Notes under the pieces: model-generated | Told to the model about the DNA's origin: nothing | Seen by the model: only the letters and a program-made list of their open reading frames with translations | The model's database searches: none | Translations under genes and position numbers: made by a program | Virus record (IMG/VR): IMGVR_UViG_3300013101_000114 | Location: 1 to 22,290 of that record | Direction: 5' to 3' (one strand) | From: a virus | Length of the DNA: 22,290 nt | Shown here: piece after piece, positions 3,656 to 20,823 of the stretch | Numbering within the stretch: the first letter of the stretch is position 1 | Layout of the letters: each line of letters opens with the position of its first letter

Positions 3656-5103
3656 TGACTCTCTCCTCCAGCTTTTTTAGGTGTATCAGGTTGCAACGCC
3701 CTGCCCTGCGGGTCTGCATTGGGTGATGCGTCCGTCGCATTAATACTGTCTTCGGCATTACCTTGCCGCATAAATCCTGTGCCACTAAGGGCCGGGGCTC
3801 CCGGAGCACGAGGTCCAGTCCCCAGATCCTGAGCAGCTTCTTCATCGGTAATAAATCCTTCTGAAAGCAACTTGAATATCCGATCCATCTTCATCGTCTT
3901 GAAGGCTTCCAGCTCATCTTCAGGACGAAGGTTAATTGGGTCGAATTTGAATTTGACGTAGGCATCCACCCCGTACAGTCTGGTAGCCAGAGTCAACGCT
4001 CTGGACATGACCTCCTCTACCGGCTTCTGGATGCCGCGAGCTACCTTCAGAAACACCAGACTCTCTGTGTTGGATAAGCTCTGTGACCCAGACAGCCTCA
4101 AGCCAAGTATCGACGGAGAGGTTTTGAGGGATGTGGCATGCTGGCCTGACAGTGCGTTCAGCAAGGGGACGTAATCTGCTTTCTCCCCCTCCGCTTTCAT
4201 CAGGTCAACATCCGCGCTATCGTAAAACACCAGTGCATCTTCTGGGTTGAGCGCCTGCAACTCGGTAGTTACAGCATCCTGAACAACTTCCATAAAAGAA
4301 GCCAGTTTGACAGAGTCATTTCGAATCTCTTCAGGAGCCGCCGCACGGACCTGCTCAGCACTTAATTTAACGTTCAACCGGCCATGCCCCTGCCTTCTCA
4401 AGGCCCGACGCATGTCTTCTAGGAAATCGTTGAAGTGGTAGCTGCTGTTCAAGGCCGCTGCCATCATCGTGGTAGCGTAGGCCTTGCTAGAATGCTTGTG
4501 CAGTTCCGAGACAAAGAAGTTCGGCAGATCCAGCTTTATGGGGTCTCCGGTAGCTGTTTGCTGCCGGGGGTACTTCGTTCCATCTCCACGAGCCACCCAC
4601 TCCAGAGTGTCGTAAGGTACGACATTGATCCTGTCCGGGAGACGCAGCTTGTCCAGCACCAGCTCAGCCGCCATAGCGCCCGTAGTGATCACCTCCAGAA
4701 GAGCAGTCTCAATAGTAGCCGTCATGCTACGTTTATCAGCAAACCCCTTGGAGTAGTCGTACAGGGTGTCCAGAGCTGCCACGACTGACCGTGCCATCTG
4801 AGTGCCTTCCACACTGTACTGGTGAGTGTCCGTCTCATAAGCAGTTAGCTTGAACCCGGAATTGGCAATCTCCACAAACGAGAATATCGCTGACGAGACT
4901 GTACCATCCTGAATATCGAGCGCCCGAACAGCGTTGACATCGTTGTTCTGGGTACGGACAGATTGTATTGACGCATTGGCAGCTCGGGTATTATCCTTGG
5001 GAATCGCAGTCCCACGATCTGACCCAGATGCCGGGGTCTGTGCCTGAGCCTTTTTTACCAACTTCGTCGGCAGAGTTACCTGCTTACCTGTTGAATCTGG
5101 CAC
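3652..5103 (-). CDS. phage portal protein
   Basis: This is a 483-residue protein between TerL and the protease, the fixed place of the portal in lambda-like head modules. The portal forms the dodecameric ring through which DNA is packaged and to which the tail joins. Supporting features are a central mixed alpha/beta body, the segment SLSNTESLVFLKVARGIQKP near residue 345, and a C-terminal region (FKFDPINLRPEDELEAFKTM, then LLSEGFITDEEAAQDLG) resembling the stem/crown helices of many portals. The tail is Pro/Gly-rich and probably disordered. The start is a GTG at 5103 directly after an in-frame TAA. GGTG lies 8 bases upstream and is a weak ribosome site. No other start is available for about 140 codons. 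Its end overlaps the protease start by 4 bases. Confidence 0.85.
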   Translation of the reverse strand: MPDSTGKQVTLPTKLVKKAQAQTPASGSDRGTAIPKDNTRAANASIQSVRTQNNDVNAVRALDIQDGTVSSAIFSFVEIANSGFKLTAYETDTHQYSVEGTQMARSVVAALDTLYDYSKGFADKRSMTATIETALLEVITTGAMAAELVLDKLRLPDRINVVPYDTLEWVARGDGTKYPRQQTATGDPIKLDLPNFFVSELHKHSSKAYATTMMAAALNSSYHFNDFLEDMRRALRRQGHGRLNVKLSAEQVRAAAPEEIRNDSVKLASFMEVVQDAVTTELQALNPEDALVFYDSADVDLMKAEGEKADYVPLLNALSGQHATSLKTSPSILGLRLSGSQSLSNTESLVFLKVARGIQKPVEEVMSRALTLATRLYGVDAYVKFKFDPINLRPEDELEAFKTMKMDRIFKLLSEGFITDEEAAQDLGTGPRAPGAPALSGTGFMRQGNAEDSINATDASPNADPQGRALQPDTPKKAGGESQ

Positions 5104-7003: not shown

Positions 7004-7703
7004 AGACTGTGATCTCTTCTTCTGTCATTAATAAGGAATCGACAACGACGGTGGATTGTCTCTCTATGGTGAAGTTGTCTATATGGGCACCTGTGTTTAT
7101 GTGCTGCTCCCAACCTACTTTAGTTTCTAGGCTGGGGTCTTGGCAGGTAGCTACAAACTCGTGAGACCCTATCCCCAGCGTAACTTCACCTACGTGTTCA
7201 GTGTAAGGAATCCTGAATCGCACAGTGCCAAATGTAACGTCAAATCTAACCCTGACGACCTCCCCAAGGTAAGTTGGGAAGGTGTAGAACACTGCGGCGT
7301 CTATCCCGCCCTTCCTAGCCACCACTAAATGGGTTGGTTCCCACCACCCCGCAGTAATTCCTTGTGAATCGTAGAAAGATTTGGGGAACATGAACCATTC
7401 AGGTGCAGTTATAGACGCTGCGTCTGGGAAGTCACCAGTCAGTACGATATCATCCCCATAGGTTGTAATAGTCTTCACTTCTATGAGCACTTCATACGCC
7501 TCGTAATCTACAATTTCAACTTCGTTGGCGGGGTATTCTACGACGGCTGTGGATTCGTCGTCGTAGAATACTGGGACTGGCTGGACGTGAACAATTGAGC
7601 CTTCGCCGCTACCTCCTCCCAAGTTGTTCAGGTGATCCCAAAACGTATTCGCCGGGGATACCGGGAGGGTGCTATTGTTGGTTACCAGTTGCCACGTATT
7701 CAT
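6990..7703 (-). CDS. hypothetical virion protein upstream of TerL, beta-rich
   Basis: This is a 237-residue protein with no family I recognise. It begins MNTWQLVTNNSTLPVSPANT, has a Gly/Ser linker (GGGSGEGS) near residues 29-36, and then consists mostly of short beta strands with many Val, Thr and aromatic residues and few Lys. That composition is common in phage tail-fibre tips, receptor-binding accessory proteins and carbohydrate-binding beta-sandwiches. There is no signal peptide or TM segment. It overlaps the previous gene by 4 bases (ATGA) and TerL by 14, so it is translated as part of the same unit. The start lacks a ribosome site, which fits coupling. A role as a small partner of the preceding beta-helix protein is inferred from position only. 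Confidence 0.6.
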   Translation of the reverse strand: MNTWQLVTNNSTLPVSPANTFWDHLNNLGGGSGEGSIVHVQPVPVFYDDESTAVVEYPANEVEIVDYEAYEVLIEVKTITTYGDDIVLTGDFPDAASITAPEWFMFPKSFYDSQGITAGWWEPTHLVVARKGGIDAAVFYTFPTYLGEVVRVRFDVTFGTVRFRIPYTEHVGEVTLGIGSHEFVATCQDPSLETKVGWEQHINTGAHIDNFTIERQSTVVVDSLLMTEEEITVYVDS

Positions 7704-8881
7704 GGGTAACTAGTGGTGCCTAGCAGGAGGTCTCTTGACGCCTCGGCTACTGCTTGTGGGTTGACCAGTTCGTTGACGATGGTGGCTCCGTTCCAAGTAC
7801 CGGAGCGGATGTGCTCACCGTTCTCGTCGACCATCTTCCCCACGCCCCTTGCCACTATTATTCCCGCTGTTACCGTGTTCTCCAGAATTACCGTGCCCGA
7901 GTTGATGTCCAAGCTTACGCTTTCTGGCCCGGATTTGCTCCGAAGGGAGATTCCTCCGTTGTAATTTCTGAGAGCTAAACTCTGACCCGAACCCCCCATG
8001 TCTATGACTGGGGTGCCCAATCCGGGAACGCCCGACCAGCAGTCTAGAAAATGAGCCGCTGCGCCTCCCCCTAGCAGTATTATTCCCGGCGAAAGTACGC
8101 ATTGTTCAACGAATCCATTTATGTAGTTTAAGCTGGTTATTTCGCAACCTTTTATCTTGGCATTGCCGTCCAGCGTTCCTGTTATCTCTGCGTCATAAAA
8201 TTCAGCGTTAGCGACTATGGCGGCAGGATCTATAGTTATTTTTGTTTTGGTCTGGCTCTCTCCGACAAATACCATGCTGGTAAAGTCTATGGCGGTGTCG
8301 AGAGTAGCGTCCCCAAGGATGTAAAAAGTACCGAACCCTCTTTCCAAGCAGATGGTGATAGCGTCGGTGAGGTTGTTTACTGGTTGTCTCGACGTTCCGG
8401 TTGGGTAGTCTGTTCCAGAGTAAATCTCAAGGAGGTCGACAGTGACGCCTCCGTTGTAGGTGCCGTGCTCAATTTCTGACAGCTGAGCTACTGTGGAGTC
8501 AACAAGGCTGGATACTGTTTGCTCCAAGAATATGTTGTACGACCCGAGGGTGGTGTTGAATGGTGACGTACCGTCCTCTGAGTAGAAGTTGCCGTTTACC
8601 CGGAGCCGGTGGCTCGCTTCGTAAGGAGCAATCTTCCAATCGGAACGTATAAAATAGGTATCCCCGAGAACTTTCGAACCGGGGAGAGGGTCACCTCCTA
8701 CTGCCCTGATTGGAAACTGAAGTTTCCTCAAGGTTTCGTCAGCGACCCAGTCTTCTTTTCCGTCAGAATAGAGATCTATCTGGACATCGATGTCGATGAC
8801 CCAGTCCCCATTCTCAAGTACGGGGACTTGGGTAACCTGTATGATGCGCGTTACAGCATCGAATGTTACCTTCGCTCCCAT
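7700..8881 (-). CDS. probable tail fibre / structural protein with beta-helix-like C-terminal region
   Basis: This is a 393-residue protein. Residues about 20-100 form a module with DWVADETLRKLQFPIRA and later DTYFIRSDWKIAP that recurs at the N-terminus of the 607-residue protein two genes upstream, suggesting a shared virion-attachment domain. Residues about 155-390 contain a series of short strands with regular Gly/Asn turns (GTLDGNAKIKGCEITSLNYI, GTVILENTVTAGIIVARGVG), the pattern of a right-handed beta-helix with a pectate-lyase-like look. The start at 8881 abuts the previous stop (TAA then ATG). GAGAGGG lies 9 bases upstream. A virion fibre or spike role is inferred; no catalytic motif was recognised. 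Confidence 0.6.
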   Translation of the reverse strand: MGAKVTFDAVTRIIQVTQVPVLENGDWVIDIDVQIDLYSDGKEDWVADETLRKLQFPIRAVGGDPLPGSKVLGDTYFIRSDWKIAPYEASHRLRVNGNFYSEDGTSPFNTTLGSYNIFLEQTVSSLVDSTVAQLSEIEHGTYNGGVTVDLLEIYSGTDYPTGTSRQPVNNLTDAITICLERGFGTFYILGDATLDTAIDFTSMVFVGESQTKTKITIDPAAIVANAEFYDAEITGTLDGNAKIKGCEITSLNYINGFVEQCVLSPGIILLGGGAAAHFLDCWSGVPGLGTPVIDMGGSGQSLALRNYNGGISLRSKSGPESVSLDINSGTVILENTVTAGIIVARGVGKMVDENGEHIRSGTWNGATIVNELVNPQAVAEASRDLLLGTTSYP

Positions 8882-9341: not shown

Positions 9342-11165
9342 TTACGTTGCGTAGTTACGCTCGTCACCACCGTTGACTGGAACGTTAATTCCGGTAGCAG
9401 CTGTGAGAGTAAACGTTGCGTCGATCCATTCTGCACCGTCCTTGGCGATAGCAACTACAGTACAAGGTGCGTTTGATGCAGGAGTCCTGCCGCCTTGAAC
9501 GTTGTTGGTATAGTCAAAGTCGAACGCGATTGTACCAGCTGAGATTTGCCCGTCCATATCGGTTCCGCCATTATCCTTGACGATGACAGCTCCGGGCGAC
9601 TCGTATGGGTTGCCGAGAATGGTGATGCTGTTTGAAGCAGCCTCGTCACCGACTGTCACACCGTCCTGCTTGGTAGCATCGACAGAAGCGTTGGTGGGTG
9701 ATCCGCCAGTCTCCTGCCACAGACCGTTCAGGGTAGTATCAGTGAACCCGTCAATGGTGAAGTATTCACCAGCCGAGATATCCATGCCAGAGCCGGAGTC
9801 AGTGAACGTTGAAGTGGCACCAGCAGCCGAAGTGGCAGCGATGGTGGACGCAGTCTGCGTCTTGGTATAGTCAAAGTACACAGTGAAAATCGTATCGACA
9901 TCCGGCTGAGTAACGAAGTTGTTGGAGAACACGAAGTTTCCAGCTGAAACGAACGGGAACGATACCTCTGTGAATATCAGAGGGACATCGTCTGAGTCCA
10001 GACCGCCTGAGTCGACTGTGATCGGCTGGTGCTTGATGCTGTTGGTAGAGTTGGCATCGAAGTTTCGCAGAACGACTCCGGGAGCCATTACCAATGTGTC
10101 ACCAACGTACTGGTCAAGCATCCGGGCAACCTTGCCGTTCACTGTACCGTAGGCATCCTGACCGGCAGTGACGCCAGTATCGGTGTTGATCTCACCAACC
10201 TGACGCAGCTGGCGCATCATGTACTCATGCGCCTCTGTGTCGGTACCAGTACCGGCATCTACTTCGCGGTTAAATGCGTAGTAGGTGGAGCCGATCAGTT
10301 CCTCACCGAAGTAGGCTTCGAAAGTTCCGGTGCCACCGTTCGCGGTGTAATCTGCAACACCTGCAGCATCCAGAGTACCGTCAGCTGAACAATACGCCCA
10401 ACGTCCTGCAACGTCCTGAATAACGTCTCCGGTAGTGTACGCCTGAGCAGCAGCAGAGGTGAATCCAGTACCTTTGATGTAGTTGATTTCCATGCTGGTG
10501 TAAGGAGCCTGAGTGTCGATGTTGCCGTCAGTCTCAGTTACCTTGGCATCGTTACCGTTTGTAAGCGGGAACGAGTAAGCTTGGAAACCAATAACAGATA
10601 GACCCTGTTCCGCCAGCAGTGCATACTCGCCGTACAGCTTGCCTTGCTCGCGCAAGAAAGATTTCTGGTAAGTTGTCAGGCCGGTGATATCGATGTTCTC
10701 GTTTACCTCGCCAGTCTTGTCGTAGTCGGTAGTAGAGGAAGTGAATCCTGCCGCCTGCGTATAATACGCAAGGTCAGATCCGGGAGCGTCGATAGCGCCC
10801 AGTGAGATCATACAGGCGTTGACGTTGCCTGAAACCTGCTCCTCAAATCCAGCGTCACGGAACAAGTCACGAGTCTGTGCGCCCTGAGGTGCCCAACCGT
10901 TTGTCCAAATGAACGAACCCTCAAAAATCATTTTGATGGGGAATTTAAAACGACGCAGGGTCGCGTTGGTCAGCCACTCTTCCTTGAGGAAGGAATAAAC
11001 TGATTTCGCAGTAGCGCCTGAAGTCTTGCCGGGGGCAGTGTCATCAAGGTTACCCGCAACACGCAACTCAACGGTCAGCGTTCCAGTTTGAATTTCTACC
11101 TCCTCAGTGGTGGCGGTAGCGTTGACAGCTATAGAATAACTATCGGGGTCTGTAAGTTTTGCCAT
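9342..11165 (-). CDS. large structural protein, probable tail fibre / virion spike
   Basis: This is a 607-residue, Thr/Ala/Gly/Asp-rich protein with few Cys or Trp and many beta strands, a typical virion composition. Residues about 58-95 (EEWLTNATLRRFKFPIKMIF, then SFIWTNGWAPQG) match the motif order of the N-terminal module in the protein encoded at 7700-8881. Residues about 430-510 include TASTIAATSAAGATSTFTDS followed by ISAGEYFTIDGFTDTTLNG, resembling an immunoglobulin-like or carbohydrate-binding repeat. The C-terminus is another small beta domain. The start at 11165 has GTAGGTATACGACA upstream, a moderate ribosome site. It is the longest gene in the window and is preceded by another large Gly/Thr/Ser-rich gene. 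The exact virion role is not determined. Confidence 0.65.
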   Translation of the reverse strand: MAKLTDPDSYSIAVNATATTEEVEIQTGTLTVELRVAGNLDDTAPGKTSGATAKSVYSFLKEEWLTNATLRRFKFPIKMIFEGSFIWTNGWAPQGAQTRDLFRDAGFEEQVSGNVNACMISLGAIDAPGSDLAYYTQAAGFTSSTTDYDKTGEVNENIDITGLTTYQKSFLREQGKLYGEYALLAEQGLSVIGFQAYSFPLTNGNDAKVTETDGNIDTQAPYTSMEINYIKGTGFTSAAAQAYTTGDVIQDVAGRWAYCSADGTLDAAGVADYTANGGTGTFEAYFGEELIGSTYYAFNREVDAGTGTDTEAHEYMMRQLRQVGEINTDTGVTAGQDAYGTVNGKVARMLDQYVGDTLVMAPGVVLRNFDANSTNSIKHQPITVDSGGLDSDDVPLIFTEVSFPFVSAGNFVFSNNFVTQPDVDTIFTVYFDYTKTQTASTIAATSAAGATSTFTDSGSGMDISAGEYFTIDGFTDTTLNGLWQETGGSPTNASVDATKQDGVTVGDEAASNSITILGNPYESPGAVIVKDNGGTDMDGQISAGTIAFDFDYTNNVQGGRTPASNAPCTVVAIAKDGAEWIDATFTLTAATGINVPVNGGDERNYAT

Positions 11166-16619: not shown

Positions 16620-17048
16620 ATGTCGAATGATATCGAACCACGTAAAGTGGAAGGTACGATAAGTATTACCTACTGGGAATGTAATGTTCTCGGGCATCGC
16701 CACCGACACAGAAAGTCAGCAGCTTATTGCATCATGAGAAGGAAAGGCGAATCGGGAGAGTTAAAGAAGCTCAAACGAAATCTATCCATGATCGTTGACC
16801 TTAGGAAAGAAACTCCACTTGTAACAATCGCCAAAAAACATTTTTGCTCCGACTCGAATATCCTTCAAGCAGTGAACTCGACCCTGAATAAGGCGTGGAA
16901 ATTTGCTGACGATAATGGCGGAGCCCCCTACGAGAGCCGAACGTGGCGTCGTATAAATTTCACGGACTCGGCTCTGGATAAAGAGCTGGAGTTCCTAACT
17001 TCTATCCTTATGGAGATGGAAGTCAAATTAGCGAAGTTGGTAGAATGA
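16620..17048 (+). CDS. hypothetical His/Cys-containing protein, second gene of the plus operon
   Basis: This is a 142-residue protein. Residues 18-40 contain YWECNVLGHRHRHRKSAAYC, a Cys/His arrangement (Cys21, His26, His28, Cys38) that could bind one metal ion. The middle is basic (KGESGELKKLKRNLS) and may carry an HTH-like segment (TPLVTIAKKHFCSDSNILQA, near residues 65-84). The C-terminal 35 residues are an acidic helix. A DNA-binding regulator is plausible, but the family was not recognised. GGGG sits directly before the ATG and GAGGCGG is further upstream, so the ribosome site is imperfect. It overlaps the J-domain gene by 4 bases (ATGA). Confidence 0.6.
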   Translation: MSNDIEPRKVEGTISITYWECNVLGHRHRHRKSAAYCIMRRKGESGELKKLKRNLSMIVDLRKETPLVTIAKKHFCSDSNILQAVNSTLNKAWKFADDNGGAPYESRTWRRINFTDSALDKELEFLTSILMEMEVKLAKLVE

Positions 17049-17689
17049 ACGAAGAACGAGATCCTTATCTAATACTTGGCGTGGAAAAAGACTCCACGCC
17101 AAGTGAAATTAAGTTCGCTTTTAGAGTGAAGGCTCAGCGCAACCACCCTGACAGAGAGGGGGGTTGTGAAAAGGCTATGGCCGACATCCAGTGGGCCTAT
17201 TCCATTTTGAAGGATGAGCAGAGGAAGAAGCACTGGGACTGCGAGGGTTTTGAGGAAGTAGCAGAGCCCTCATTCTCAGAAAAAGCAACCGCCAATATTA
17301 TGGGAGCCTTCTCCCAGTGGCTCAACGGCGTATTCACCGGGCAGATCCTCCCGAATACCGACTGCGTGGCTCAGCTCCGCACAGCTATACAGAATGAACT
17401 CAGTAAAGCTTGTCAGGGCAAATCTCAAATAAAAAACAATATGGGTAAAATAGACAAGATGCTTGGAAAGTTCGAGTGTGACAACGGACAGTACAACTTC
17501 TTCGAGGGGCACCTGCAATCCACAAAAGAAGCATCTAAAAGAAAGCTGCTGGAAGTAGAAACTCAGATAAAAATAATGGAGGAGTCGGTTGAGCAGCTAA
17601 AGCACTTTTCCTATTCACCGGAGGGTGGGCTGGTAAGAGTGGCCCCGCCTATATCTAGAACCGGAAGTGCGACAACTATAAGCTACTGA
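17045..17689 (+). CDS. J-domain (DnaJ-like) protein
   Basis: This is a 214-residue protein. Residues 5-70 are a canonical J-domain: DPYLILGVEKDSTPSEIKFA, then the HPD tripeptide at 34-36 (QRNHPDREGG), then MADIQWAYSILKDEQRKKHW. HPD stimulates the ATPase of Hsp70 (DnaK), so this protein should recruit host DnaK. There is no Gly/Phe region and no Cys-rich zinc domain, so it is a class C-type J-protein with a private client domain. Residues about 100-195 are helical and coiled-coil-like (LLEVETQIKIMEESVEQLKH). Phage J-proteins may serve replication-complex remodelling or folding. It is coupled to the preceding gene by ATGA; the next gene starts 2 bases after it. Confidence 0.85.
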   Translation: MNEERDPYLILGVEKDSTPSEIKFAFRVKAQRNHPDREGGCEKAMADIQWAYSILKDEQRKKHWDCEGFEEVAEPSFSEKATANIMGAFSQWLNGVFTGQILPNTDCVAQLRTAIQNELSKACQGKSQIKNNMGKIDKMLGKFECDNGQYNFFEGHLQSTKEASKRKLLEVETQIKIMEESVEQLKHFSYSPEGGLVRVAPPISRTGSATTISY

Positions 17690-18363: not shown

Positions 18364-18629
18364 GAGTTGACTGGGAGCTACTTGTTGCTGACAGTGAAAC
18401 AGGTATGGCGGTCTGGATGGTGCGAGGCATCCCTAAGGATTGCCCGAAGAAAAAGGCGACTTGGATTGCTGTGGCTGTACGTCAAATTCAAAATAAAATT
18501 GTGCGAATCATCTCAAAGGACATGGGAGCGCCGGGGGCTTTCCCGCAGCTGACCGAGTCTTTAATCGATCATGGATTTGAGAAAGTTTTCATGATGAAGA
18601 ATGGGAGGGTGCAGTGGTACAAGCTGTAG
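18360..18629 (+). CDS. small alpha/beta protein, GTG start coupled to the membrane gene
   Basis: The frame from 18252 is open, but the likely start is the GTG at 18360, whose bases overlap the upstream TGA (GTGTGA). This gives 89 residues: DWELLVADSETGMAVWMVRG, a basic central helix (KKKATWIAVAVRQIQNKIVR) and a C-terminal strand (VFMMKNGRVQWYKL). GGAAG lies just 2 bases upstream, so coupling is probable. No family was recognised. It is the last gene of the plus operon and ends 4 bases from a convergent minus-strand stop, with no clear terminator between them. Confidence 0.5.
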   Translation: MRVDWELLVADSETGMAVWMVRGIPKDCPKKKATWIAVAVRQIQNKIVRIISKDMGAPGAFPQLTESLIDHGFEKVFMMKNGRVQWYKL

Positions 18630-18633
18630 TGTA

Positions 18634-18852
18634 TTAGCCGGTAGCCCACTTTAACAGATCCACAAGTTGCTCTGCTGCAGACAGAAGTCCTTCACGCCAA
18701 GCAAACTCTTCGCCCTTCGCAGAGGCTCTCAAAGTCTCATTGGCAGCAACCAATAAAAACCAGTAGGTGGGAGTGGAGGAGGAAAGAAAAAGCGCCTTCC
18801 GAACCGGGGCTTTCGTCAGGACGCTCTTAACTTTGTTCAGGTAACCTATCAT
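18634..18852 (-). CDS. small hypothetical protein, last gene of the accessory operon
   Basis: This is a 72-residue protein that starts MIGYLNKVKSVLTKAPVRKA and ends SAAEQLVDLLKWATG. It has one moderately hydrophobic segment (TYWFLLVAANETL, residues 29-41) and may be a small helical or peripheral membrane protein. GAG lies 6 bases before the ATG, a weak ribosome site. Its leader carries copy B of the conserved hairpin (18880-18906), the main reason to take the gene seriously. It converges with the plus operon. Confidence 0.5.
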   Translation of the reverse strand: MIGYLNKVKSVLTKAPVRKALFLSSSTPTYWFLLVAANETLRASAKGEEFAWREGLLSAAEQLVDLLKWATG

Positions 18853-18879
18853 CTAAATCTCGTGAAGCCTCGGAAACTG

Positions 18880-18906
18880 GGTGGGGACGGTTTGACTGCC
18901 CCCACC
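18880..18906 (-). repeat. conserved leader hairpin, copy B
   Basis: The minus strand reads GGTGGGGGC-AGTCAAACC-GTCCCCACC: a 9-bp stem (eight Watson-Crick pairs, one G-U) and a 9-base loop. It ends 27 bases before the start of the 72-residue gene. The loop is identical to copy A. There is no U-run after it. Confidence 0.65.
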
Positions 18907-18916
18907 CTACTTCGGC

Positions 18917-19471
18917 TTACTTTTTGATGGTCTTGCCACCACTTCTCTGGCCGTGAGTGCTTCCCGGCAGAGCTGTCTCTGGCAGGTCGACCATAGGGCG
19001 CTGTTCGATCTCATCAACCAACTGTTCGAGAACAGCCAAGTTGTTCACCGCCCTCAGGTAGTCAAATTCGACAAGGGAGCCAGCAATACCCGCAGACTGA
19101 CTCTTCGCCAACTCAACTGCCAAAGTGAGCCAATTTTCCGCCAGTTCCTGCGTGGCTTCGTTCATCGGCACTTCTTCACCATTGATATTTTCAGTGAAGT
19201 AGACATACGGGGCGCTGAAGTTGATCGGCATGTCCGTAGGGTGAGAAGCGGGACGGTCTGGGATGGGCCGAGCGTTCAGGCGCTCAACCACGTCACTGGC
19301 TTTTGCGATGTACTGGCGCTGCCGTCCAATAGCATGTTCATCCAGCCCGTTGCTGTGTGCAGCGCTGGGTTCTCGTGCAATAGTCTGGCCGAACTCATAG
19401 CACTGCTTTGCAGCGGAACGTAGCCCGATATTACGGTTCGGATATGTCTGATGTAAGTCATTGATTGGCAT
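18917..19471 (-). CDS. hypothetical protein, helical, with polar Pro-rich middle
   Basis: This is a 184-residue protein beginning MPINDLHQTYPNRNIGLRSA. AAGGAAGAAA precedes the ATG, a good ribosome site. Helical segments flank a Pro-rich middle (RPIPDRPASHPTDMPINFSA). Residues about 110-165 form a long amphipathic helix pair (ATQELAENWLTLAVELAKSQ, then AVLEQLVDEIEQRP). The C-terminus is basic (QRSGGKTIKK). No family was recognised. It carries copy A of the conserved leader hairpin and is separated from the upstream HTH gene by about 125 bases, so it is probably its own expression unit within the operon. Confidence 0.6.
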   Translation of the reverse strand: MPINDLHQTYPNRNIGLRSAAKQCYEFGQTIAREPSAAHSNGLDEHAIGRQRQYIAKASDVVERLNARPIPDRPASHPTDMPINFSAPYVYFTENINGEEVPMNEATQELAENWLTLAVELAKSQSAGIAGSLVEFDYLRAVNNLAVLEQLVDEIEQRPMVDLPETALPGSTHGQRSGGKTIKK

Positions 19472-19507
19472 TTTCTTCCTTACTCCTGCTTTTAAGGCGC
19501 ATAATTG

Positions 19508-19534
19508 GGTTGGAACGGTTTGACTGTTCCCACC
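19508..19534 (-). repeat. conserved leader hairpin, copy A
   Basis: The minus strand reads GGTGGGAAC-AGTCAAACC-GTTCCAACC: a 9-bp stem with eight Watson-Crick pairs and one G-A mismatch, and a 9-base loop identical to copy B. All four differences between the copies lie in the stem, and one is a compensatory G-C to A-U change. It ends 36 bases before the 184-residue gene. Confidence 0.65.
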
Positions 19535-19551
19535 GCCTGATCATCCCACAA

Positions 19552-19584
19552 TTTTTTGGATCGGAAAACCGTCGGATCAAAAAA
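19552..19584. terminator. T6/A6-flanked inverted repeat downstream of the HTH gene
   Basis: TTTTTTGGATC and GATCAAAAAA form a near-perfect inverted repeat with one extra base, enclosing a small GG/CC stem. A second short repeat, GGATC-AAAAAA-GATCC, overlaps it. It lies 15 bases after the stop of the minus-strand HTH gene. A weak bidirectional terminator or an operator is possible. Confidence 0.35.
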
Positions 19585-19598
19585 GATCCATAGAAATG

Positions 19599-19775
19599 CT
19601 AAGTGATGTCATATTTTTTGCGGAGGTTGAAAACCGTGCTCTTCTTCACCCCAACCTTCCGGGCAATGTCACGATCATACAAACCTTTGAGGCGGTACCT
19701 GCGTACCGCCTCCACAAGATCTTTACGACTGTCGTAATTGCCCGTTATGATCGGACGGCCCAGAACCTTCTTCAT
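19599..19775 (-). CDS. small helix-turn-helix DNA-binding protein
   Basis: This is a 58-residue protein started at the ATG at 19775, because GGAG stands 6 bases upstream; a second ATG at 19781 is too close to it. Residues about 22-58 read RRYRLKGLYDRDIARKVGVK then KSTVFNLRKKYDIT, a homeodomain-like or resolvase-type HTH with Gly at the turn and a recognition helix KKSTVFNLRKK. The N-terminus (LGRPIITG) looks like a recombinase-type arm. A small transcriptional regulator of the operon or of the adjacent hairpin-leader genes is likely. It overlaps the upstream gene by 53 bases. Confidence 0.65.
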   Translation of the reverse strand: MKKVLGRPIITGNYDSRKDLVEAVRRYRLKGLYDRDIARKVGVKKSTVFNLRKKYDIT

Positions 19776-20025
19776 TTTCATCTCCAGTCAACAACCCACA
19801 TTCTATTGCCTTCTGAAGAATCTCTCTAGAGGGGACTTCTAAATTAACCACAGAAACTGCAATTACCCACTCCGAAAACTTCTGCCAGTCAGGAGGAGAA
19901 CTCTCCTTGAAACGACACTCAAACCAGTCAGGAGCCCCACATCCCCGGCCCGCAATCACATAAGCGCAAATACCCCCAGCAGTGGGGAATCCTCCACACC
20001 AGCAAAATATATCCTTACAGTTCAC
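19723..20025 (-). CDS. Cys-rich small protein downstream of acb2
   Basis: This 100-residue protein uses a GTG at 20025, two bases after the Acb2 stop (TAGTTGTG); longer frames would run into acb2. GGAG lies 11 bases upstream, slightly long. The N-terminal 45 residues have six Cys (CKDIFCWCGG, then GICAYVIAGRGCG and FEC), suggesting metal binding or a small redox-sensitive fold. The rest is mixed (PDWQKFSEWVIAVSVVNLEV). The C-terminal 20 residues are acidic or polar and overlap the HTH start. No family was recognised. Its tight link to acb2 suggests a counter-defence or accessory role, by association only. Confidence 0.55.
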   Translation of the reverse strand: MNCKDIFCWCGGFPTAGGICAYVIAGRGCGAPDWFECRFKESSPPDWQKFSEWVIAVSVVNLEVPSREILQKAIECGLLTGDENEEGSGPSDHNGQLRQS

Positions 20026-20027
20026 AA

Positions 20028-20300
20028 CTAGAAAAACTCCGGCTTGGCGACAGAACGAGTCCACGCCATCAAACCCTGCTGAAGATGGTCAGATCCAATT
20101 TCCAACCAACGAATAGATTGAGCTAAAGGCTCAGTTTCCTCCGCAGAGGGTGGGGGAGGAGAATCCCACCCAACTACCTCGCTGAGCTTGTCTCTTAACA
20201 GAGAAAGCTCCTTACCCTTCTCCTTGATCTCATTCATCAAGTTGATCTCATCCTGAGACAACTCACGGTAACCACTGATCTTCCTGTGTTGATTTTCCAT
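20028..20300 (-). CDS. acb2: Acb2 family anti-CBASS protein (cyclic-oligonucleotide sponge)
   Basis: The 90-residue protein carries the Acb2 signature: HRKISGYRELSQDEINLMNE at 5-24, IKEKG at 25-29, and RWLEIGSDHLQQGLMAWTRS at 64-83 followed by VAKPEFF. Acb2 forms hexamers that sequester cyclic di- and trinucleotide signals made by CBASS (and Thoeris-type) defences, preventing effector activation. From memory, Tyr11 and Lys26 of the PaMx33 Acb2 contact the ligand; here Tyr11 and Lys26 fall at exactly the same numbers. A Pro/Glu-rich insertion (SPPPPSAEETEP, 47-58) between the helices is longer than I expect for the family. GAGG precedes the ATG, which overlaps the upstream stop (TAATG). Family identity is strong by motif; activity here is inferred. 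Confidence 0.88.
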   Translation of the reverse strand: MENQHRKISGYRELSQDEINLMNEIKEKGKELSLLRDKLSEVVGWDSPPPPSAEETEPLAQSIRWLEIGSDHLQQGLMAWTRSVAKPEFF

Positions 20301-20527
20301 TACTTATCCTCTCTCAATGCACGACTTGCATGCTGGTAAATTGCCTCTACTCCAGTAGGCTTGCCACAGGCACACAAGTTGGCGTTAGCGTGGCAGGCCC
20401 CCTGTATCCACTCCAAAGCTTCTTGTAGACGAGCTATGCGCTCGTCTACATAATCGTCGTAAGACAGGTAGCCGGAAATGTCGCTCCGAAGGTGGTCCCG
20501 ATACTCGTCAAAAATCTTACTCGTCAT
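20300..20527 (-). CDS. small hypothetical protein directly upstream of acb2
   Basis: This is a 75-residue helical protein (MTSKIFDEYRDHLRSDISGY, then ERIARLQEALEWIQGACHAN). Three Cys and two His in the middle (Cys44, His45, Cys50, Cys52, His66) could bind metal. GAGG lies 4-5 bases before the ATG. It is coupled on both sides, by ATGA upstream and TAATG into acb2. No family was recognised. Confidence 0.55.
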   Translation of the reverse strand: MTSKIFDEYRDHLRSDISGYLSYDDYVDERIARLQEALEWIQGACHANANLCACGKPTGVEAIYQHASRALREDK

Positions 20528-20823
20528 CTCGACCTCTTGTTTAAAATCAATACCATCTCATACTCCGTCGGAGACCTCTGGCCTCCGCAATTTTTACATT
20601 CCATCTTCGTGTGCCTGACAGGGTGAGTGAACGTCGACTCCCATTGATGTAAACACGCGGCCTTATTGGTTTCGTAGTAATACTGAATGGATGTGGTGAA
20701 AGTAAAAATTTTGTCGCAAGAGTCACACTGCTGCTCGTGAATTTTATCCTCAGCGTATCCCTGCCCATCATCATGGTTAACCTCCTGCGGAGCATTACAG
20801 TACGGGCAGTCTATGTCGGCCAC
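20524..20823 (-). CDS. double zinc-ribbon protein
   Basis: This 99-residue protein has two likely zinc sites: Cys6-x2-Cys9 with Cys33-x2-Cys36 (DCPYC, then QCDSCDKIF), and Cys57/His59 with Cys76-x2-Cys79 (ACLHQW, then ECKNCGG). Zinc ribbons of this kind occur in phage proteins that bind nucleic acids or host transcription components. The start is a GTG at 20823 inside the end of the upstream gene; the ribosome site is weak. It overlaps the downstream gene by ATGA. The role is not known. Confidence 0.65.
   Translation of the reverse strand: MADIDCPYCNAPQEVNHDDGQGYAEDKIHEQQCDSCDKIFTFTTSIQYYYETNKAACLHQWESTFTHPVRHTKMECKNCGGQRSPTEYEMVLILNKRSR

Follow-up and report, generated by a model that had tools for sequence, protein, structure and literature searches.

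A hairpin with a conserved apex and a covarying stem recurs at gene boundaries in two related viruses

The stretch analysed here (the window) is a 22,290-base record of an uncultured virus. In its right part two hairpins, copy A and copy B, sit among genes on the minus strand (Table 1). The window encodes a terminase large subunit (PHROG 675, E 8e-100), whose matches to named phages all lie below 60% identity, the best being about 33% to Vibrio phages. No DNA-level match of the right half to named phages was found, nor any DNA match to phage or plasmid records. The one close relative of the virus is a contig within the draft genome of a Desulfobacteraceae (MAG BM002, 3.8 Mb), PPDG01000575.1, which we analysed whole and call L222. 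It is largely syntenic with the window and has the DnaJ-like, 184-aa and 72-aa genes and several structural genes in common with it; the early region of L222 is unlike that of the window.

Table 1. Features of the locus in the window and of its counterparts in L222
Feature	Position	Strand	Description
Window: 72-aa protein gene	18634..18852	-	Downstream of copy A; 52% identical L222 relative behind the counterpart hairpin
Window: hairpin copy A	18879..18907	-	10-bp stem GGGTGGGGGC/GTCCCCACCC, loop AGTCAAACC
Window: 184-aa protein gene	18917..19471	-	Between copies A and B; strongly conserved family, without annotation
Window: hairpin copy B	19507..19535	-	Stem CGGTGGGAAC/GTTCCAACCC with one G-A mismatch, loop AGTCAAACC
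Window: 60-aa helix-turn-helix-like protein gene	19599..19781	-	Upstream of copy B; weak HTH matches
L222: strict copy	7418-7446		Perfect hairpin, loop AGTTAAACC
L222: degenerate copy	7738-7766		Hairpin
L222: structured leader of the 184-aa gene	9816-9946
L222: counterpart of copy A	10514-10542		Between 184-aa and 70-aa genes; GGGCGGCGAT-AGTTAAACC-ATCGCCGCCC
L222: strict copy	10783-10811		Perfect hairpin, loop AGTTAAACC

Members of the 184-aa protein family were found in viral contigs and are 56-90% identical among relatives, with the L222 member (L049) at 90%. Among 395 genomes of the MAG's phylum the protein occurred in that MAG only. It matched no Pfam, PHROGs or NCBIfam family, the family was not found among the named phages searched, and the predicted structure, a moderate model (pLDDT 78), returned no fold neighbour. 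For the 72-aa protein, no relatives were found in viral contigs. Elsewhere in this phage genome, window 17045-17689 (+) encodes a DnaJ-domain protein that has a relative in L222. The product of 20028-20300 (-) carries an Acb2/Tad1 hairpin domain (Pfam PF24729, E 3e-14) and is likely, judging by this match, an anti-CBASS or anti-Thoeris sponge; that of 20524-20823 (-) weakly matches the restriction alleviation protein Lar (PF14354, below cut-off).

The original prediction described two minus-strand hairpins at 18880-18906 and 19508-19534 with exactly the same 9-base loop, and we found both at these places, with AGTCAAACC in each. The core of copy A (18906-18880) reads GGTGGGGGC-AGTCAAACC-GTCCCCACC and is fully paired, including one G-U; outside the 27 bases of the core, a further G-C pair forms at 18907/18879. 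The core of copy B (19534-19508) reads GGTGGGAAC-AGTCAAACC-GTTCCAACC. The two share the loop and the closing C-G and differ at four bases: one pair turns from G-C to A-U by changes on both sides, another from G-U to A-U by a one-sided change, and C to A at 19511 converts a G-C pair into a G-A mismatch in copy B. Three of the four changes, those in the two pairs mentioned before, hence keep pairing, but the fourth, whose mismatch had gone without mention, does not. CAGTCAAACCGT is present exactly twice in the window, and the two hairpins are listed as a 32-nt pair among its repeats (family D14). When 150 windows of the same composition were simulated with a Markov model, none contained 9-nt-loop hairpins in which a loop occurred twice. 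Copy A folds far better than shuffled sequences (z -4.4, 0 of 200), and copy B alone folds no better than they do (z -0.4, 68 of 200).

Copy A lies 9 nt past the stop of the 184-aa gene and 26-27 nt ahead of the 72-aa gene start; copy B lies 63 nt past the HTH gene and 35-36 nt ahead of the 184-aa gene start. Both distances to the starts agree with those given before. At 403-432, directly after a capsid-like gene, the window has another perfect hairpin of 12 bp (TGGCGGTGGGCC/GGCCCACCGCCA); its 6-nt loop differs from that of copies A and B, and its G-rich stem is similar.

L222 contains three perfect hairpins with the loop AGTTAAACC and a fourth, degenerate one. Comparison of copy A with the L222 10514 copy, a pair found by synteny, revealed changes in 7 of 20 stem bases with all 10 pairs kept, three of them through double change, versus 1 of 9 loop bases (C to T). 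Within each virus the strict copies all have the same letter at this loop position (C in the window, T in L222), as expected if a factor coevolves with all copies. We also searched by the loop alone, so that sites were not selected for structure. This search of the MAG, the window and relatives, pooled, gave 37 distinct AGTYAAACC sites; five of them, in the two viruses, are flanked by uninterrupted stems of 10, 10, 11, 10 and 5 bp, versus 0-3 bp at the other 32. Searching by the loop and then asking for the stem thus cleanly separates real repeated hairpins from chance.

In an alignment of six copies, 95% of cells are paired and 6 of 10 pairs show double changes; the covariation score of 0.71 (versus 0.01-0.09 in slid controls and 0.23 in shuffles) comes from a small sample of two viruses, with the degenerate copy chosen partly for being a hairpin. 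The strict L222 copies fold strongly, like copy A; for the degenerate copy the antisense strand gives the better fold. The consensus is GGYGG-NNNN-RGUYWAACY-N'N'N'N'-CCRCC, in which the inner four stem positions stay complementary while their sequence changes. A covarying stem, as claimed before, is therefore supported, with strong evidence from L222; copy B, on which the claim had mainly been based, is the weakest copy. That the apex is conserved and the stem covaries suggests that something reads the apex in folded form.

The five strict copies all lie at gene boundaries, in gaps between genes. Four of them precede gene starts, as had been claimed for the element in general, but the L222 10783 copy begins at the stop codon of the 70-aa gene. 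Three of the five occupy leaders, at 26-35 nt from the start. Both copy A and its counterpart in L222 follow a stop by 9-12 nt and precede the next start by 26-29 nt, and the L222 7418 copy lies about 20 nt before a minus-strand start with a good Shine-Dalgarno sequence.

Loop orientation is not fixed: read on the mRNA strand, the loop is AGUYAAACC in some copies (AGUCAAACC in A and B, AGUUAAACC in L222 10514) and GGUUUAACU in others (L222 7418 and 10783). A single quasi-palindromic apex, RGUYWAACY, nonetheless accommodates all loops; in predicted folds its G2-C8 and U3-A7 can pair around a tri-loop. Because the orientation of the element is free, a role at the DNA level is conceivable, though we regard it as unlikely. 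In that case a phage protein of DNA binding, replication or recombination would recognise the 27-29 bp interrupted palindrome as a cruciform or as a hairpin of single-stranded DNA, consistent with its occurrence in both orientations relative to genes and with the quasi-palindromic centre RGTYWAACY. An inner stem that is complementary and not conserved suits a single-strand hairpin of either nucleic acid, but an ordinary double-strand operator needs no complementarity at four changing inner positions. The tight placement at gene boundaries, mostly near starts, also speaks against DNA, as does the fact that the likely DNA operator of L222 is a quite different, sequence-conserved palindrome in seven copies. 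These copies, at L222 1750, 4617, 6239, 7447, 8615, 8663 and 9478, are near AACTTCACAATGTGAAGTT in sequence; several are close to minus-strand gene starts, and they are probably phage repressor operators.

Location between genes, stable and varied stems and the one copy that starts at a stop codon would also be expected of a passive intercistronic hairpin with a favoured loop, serving mRNA-end stability, an exonuclease block, weaker read-through or help with re-initiation. The intercistronic CUUCGG hairpins of T4 likewise lie between genes and combine a fixed loop with varied stems. They owe their stability to a tetraloop, whereas the 9-nt apex found here is not a known stable tetraloop and has no known exceptional stability. 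Moreover, a passive hairpin should put up with changes in its loop, whereas the strict copies of each virus have identical loops on differing stems. A terminator tail is absent as well: no poly-T tail was seen after the window copies, window 18500-19900 contains no intrinsic terminator (GC-rich hairpin plus T tract), and the sole terminator-like site at the L222 copies is weak and antisense (10542-10514). We accordingly give the passive hairpin a low probability.

A covariance model built from the six copies was run over 534 kb of related viral sequence. Above noise it recovered only these six, on one or both strands, and one doubtful match (L228, the contig of L006, 7349-7326; 20 bits, E 0.2). 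The doubtful match lies just past the gene that follows the 184-aa gene, a place at which L222 has a copy too. Across the whole 3.8 Mb MAG there were four matches, all on the phage contig L222. We found no clear hairpin copy in the other relatives carrying the 184-aa gene, no copy at 24 loci of terminase relatives, and no further convincing hairpin in pattern scans of viral contigs. The exact scan with GGNNCAGTCAAACCGTNCC gave two matches in viral contigs (L001, L002), neither a hairpin and the second antisense within a coding region. At least 119 stretches fitted AGTYAAACC-N10-AGTTTC in viral contigs; among the matches listed few had a stem, and these were weak and AT-rich. The 30 matches to GGYGGNNNNAGTNNAACCNNNNCCRCC had 4-8 of 9 pairs, none combining the loop with a perfect stem, and were taken as chance. 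One MAG site in a host spacer (L182) has an interrupted stem and was judged unrelated. Further copies thus turned up in the related virus L222 but no clear one in other relatives, and the idea of a widespread phage element was not borne out. As far as known, the range of the element is narrow, and known relatives of the virus are very few; the hairpin is lineage-specific and so far confined to two related viruses.

Differences in copy presence between the two viruses and the occurrence of both orientations could reflect a mobile or selfish repeat, of REP or MITE type, that spread by insertion into spacers. We consider this very unlikely. Reading of the flanks showed no target-site duplication or constant flank, the stems are not conserved in sequence as REP or MITE arms are, and copy A has stayed in one position across the two viruses with a diverged stem. 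Also unlike REP or MITE, the element is not a sequence-conserved, multi-copy repeat of the host genome: the MAG has no copies outside the phage contig, to which all model matches are confined.

The loops could instead pair with one another. The sense-strand loops that flank the 70-aa gene of L222, AGUUAAACC before it and GGUUUAACU after it, show complementarity at all 9 nt; GGUUUAACU also occurs in a third L222 mRNA leader. Kissing loops within or between phage mRNAs might in this way couple the expression of several genes, a network to which we assign only a slight probability. Both window mRNA loops are AGUCAAACC, so a kissing partner would have to lie outside the window. Other roles of the loop were rejected. 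A pseudoknot of AAAC with GUUU after copy A would need its 1-2 nt linker to span a 10-bp stem, which it cannot, and copy B has no GUUU partner; an anti-Shine-Dalgarno role fails because neither start region has complementarity to the loop. By eye, the hairpins matched no CRISPR-repeat mimic, attC, T-loop or anticodon mimic, and these ideas were dropped.

Leaders of the 184-aa gene carry other structures in relatives. In five of them (L005, L006, L007, L039 and L049), a long stem of 17 predicted pairs encloses a second stem with the loop CCUGCU, which is complementary to the Shine-Dalgarno core AGCAGG. Across these five sequences, 10 of 26 predicted pairs show double changes, and no relevant Rfam match was found. 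From the predicted fold, this leader looks like a translational switch. In L222, the leader that corresponds to that of copy B contains a different hairpin, GGGAACAGACGTTCCC. In L010, the leader of the same gene family (4926-4989) is a near-threshold int-alpA RNA (RF02996, a three-way junction; 34.0 bits versus a gathering threshold of 35.8), the first loop of which, CCUCGC, is complementary to a downstream GCGAGG; this complementarity suggests a possible cis role for int-alpA RNA, which is filed as an sRNA. The L048 leader resembles that of L010 by eye and went undetected by Rfam. The window has neither the CCUGCU structure nor int-alpA RNA, and copy B occupies that leader. These observations suggest that translation start is the usual point of control for the 184-aa gene, and that in this virus copy B may have assumed a role of this kind.

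The hairpin had been proposed as a possibly undescribed leader element, and no Rfam family matches it: with Rfam 15, the window gave no match at the gathering threshold and none of relevance at a relaxed threshold, and L222 gave none. The element is not in any family tested and, by analogy, would work most like a multi-copy operator hairpin. In T4 and RB69, the translational operator of gene 43 is a hairpin that precedes the start codon (about 40 bases in T4), shares conserved bases in its top and loop across the two phages and is read by a phage protein (PMC3014915). Our element is likewise a hairpin upstream of a start, with loop bases conserved across phages (copy A and L222 10514). The gene 43 operator, however, is single, precedes the DNA polymerase gene and is bound by that polymerase, whereas here several copies with a longer stem precede unrelated small genes whose unannotated proteins have no family match. 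The extended start-associated sequences (ESAS) of cluster K mycobacteriophages are repeated inverted repeats of unknown function just upstream of many gene starts, next to SAS; their 17-bp arms are conserved in sequence, their spacer varies, and departures lend no support to RNA pairing (PMC3203893). Like ESAS, our hairpins are repeated inverted repeats near gene starts and specific to a phage group; unlike ESAS, they have varying arms that stay paired, and their spacer, the loop, is fixed. The nut boxB of lambdoid phages also occurs more than once per phage and has a fixed loop that is bound by a phage RNA-binding protein. It combines a 5-bp stem and a GNRA-like pentaloop with an upstream boxA, while our copies have 10-bp stems and a 9-nt apex, and no boxA-like sequence was seen in the flanks by eye.

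Taken together, the best fit to the data is an RNA-binding factor with leaders and spacers as its targets, which ranks above the DNA-level, passive and mobile readings. We propose, at a little short of even chances, a lineage-specific RNA hairpin whose apex is read by a coevolving factor in post-transcriptional control. The element would act as folded RNA in an mRNA leader or spacer. Its quasi-palindromic apex, with a tri-loop closed by U-A and G-C, would present nearly the same shape in either orientation to a trans-acting factor of phage or host, and binding of this factor would change the translation or processing of the flanking genes. Going by the sequence pattern, the hairpin is probably a docking site for a putative regulator. 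If this is true, this virus group puts several genes under one putative regulator by means of a short, reusable RNA tag. The viruses linked to sulfate-reducing bacteria have received little study, and the hairpin would offer a handle to fish out the regulator.
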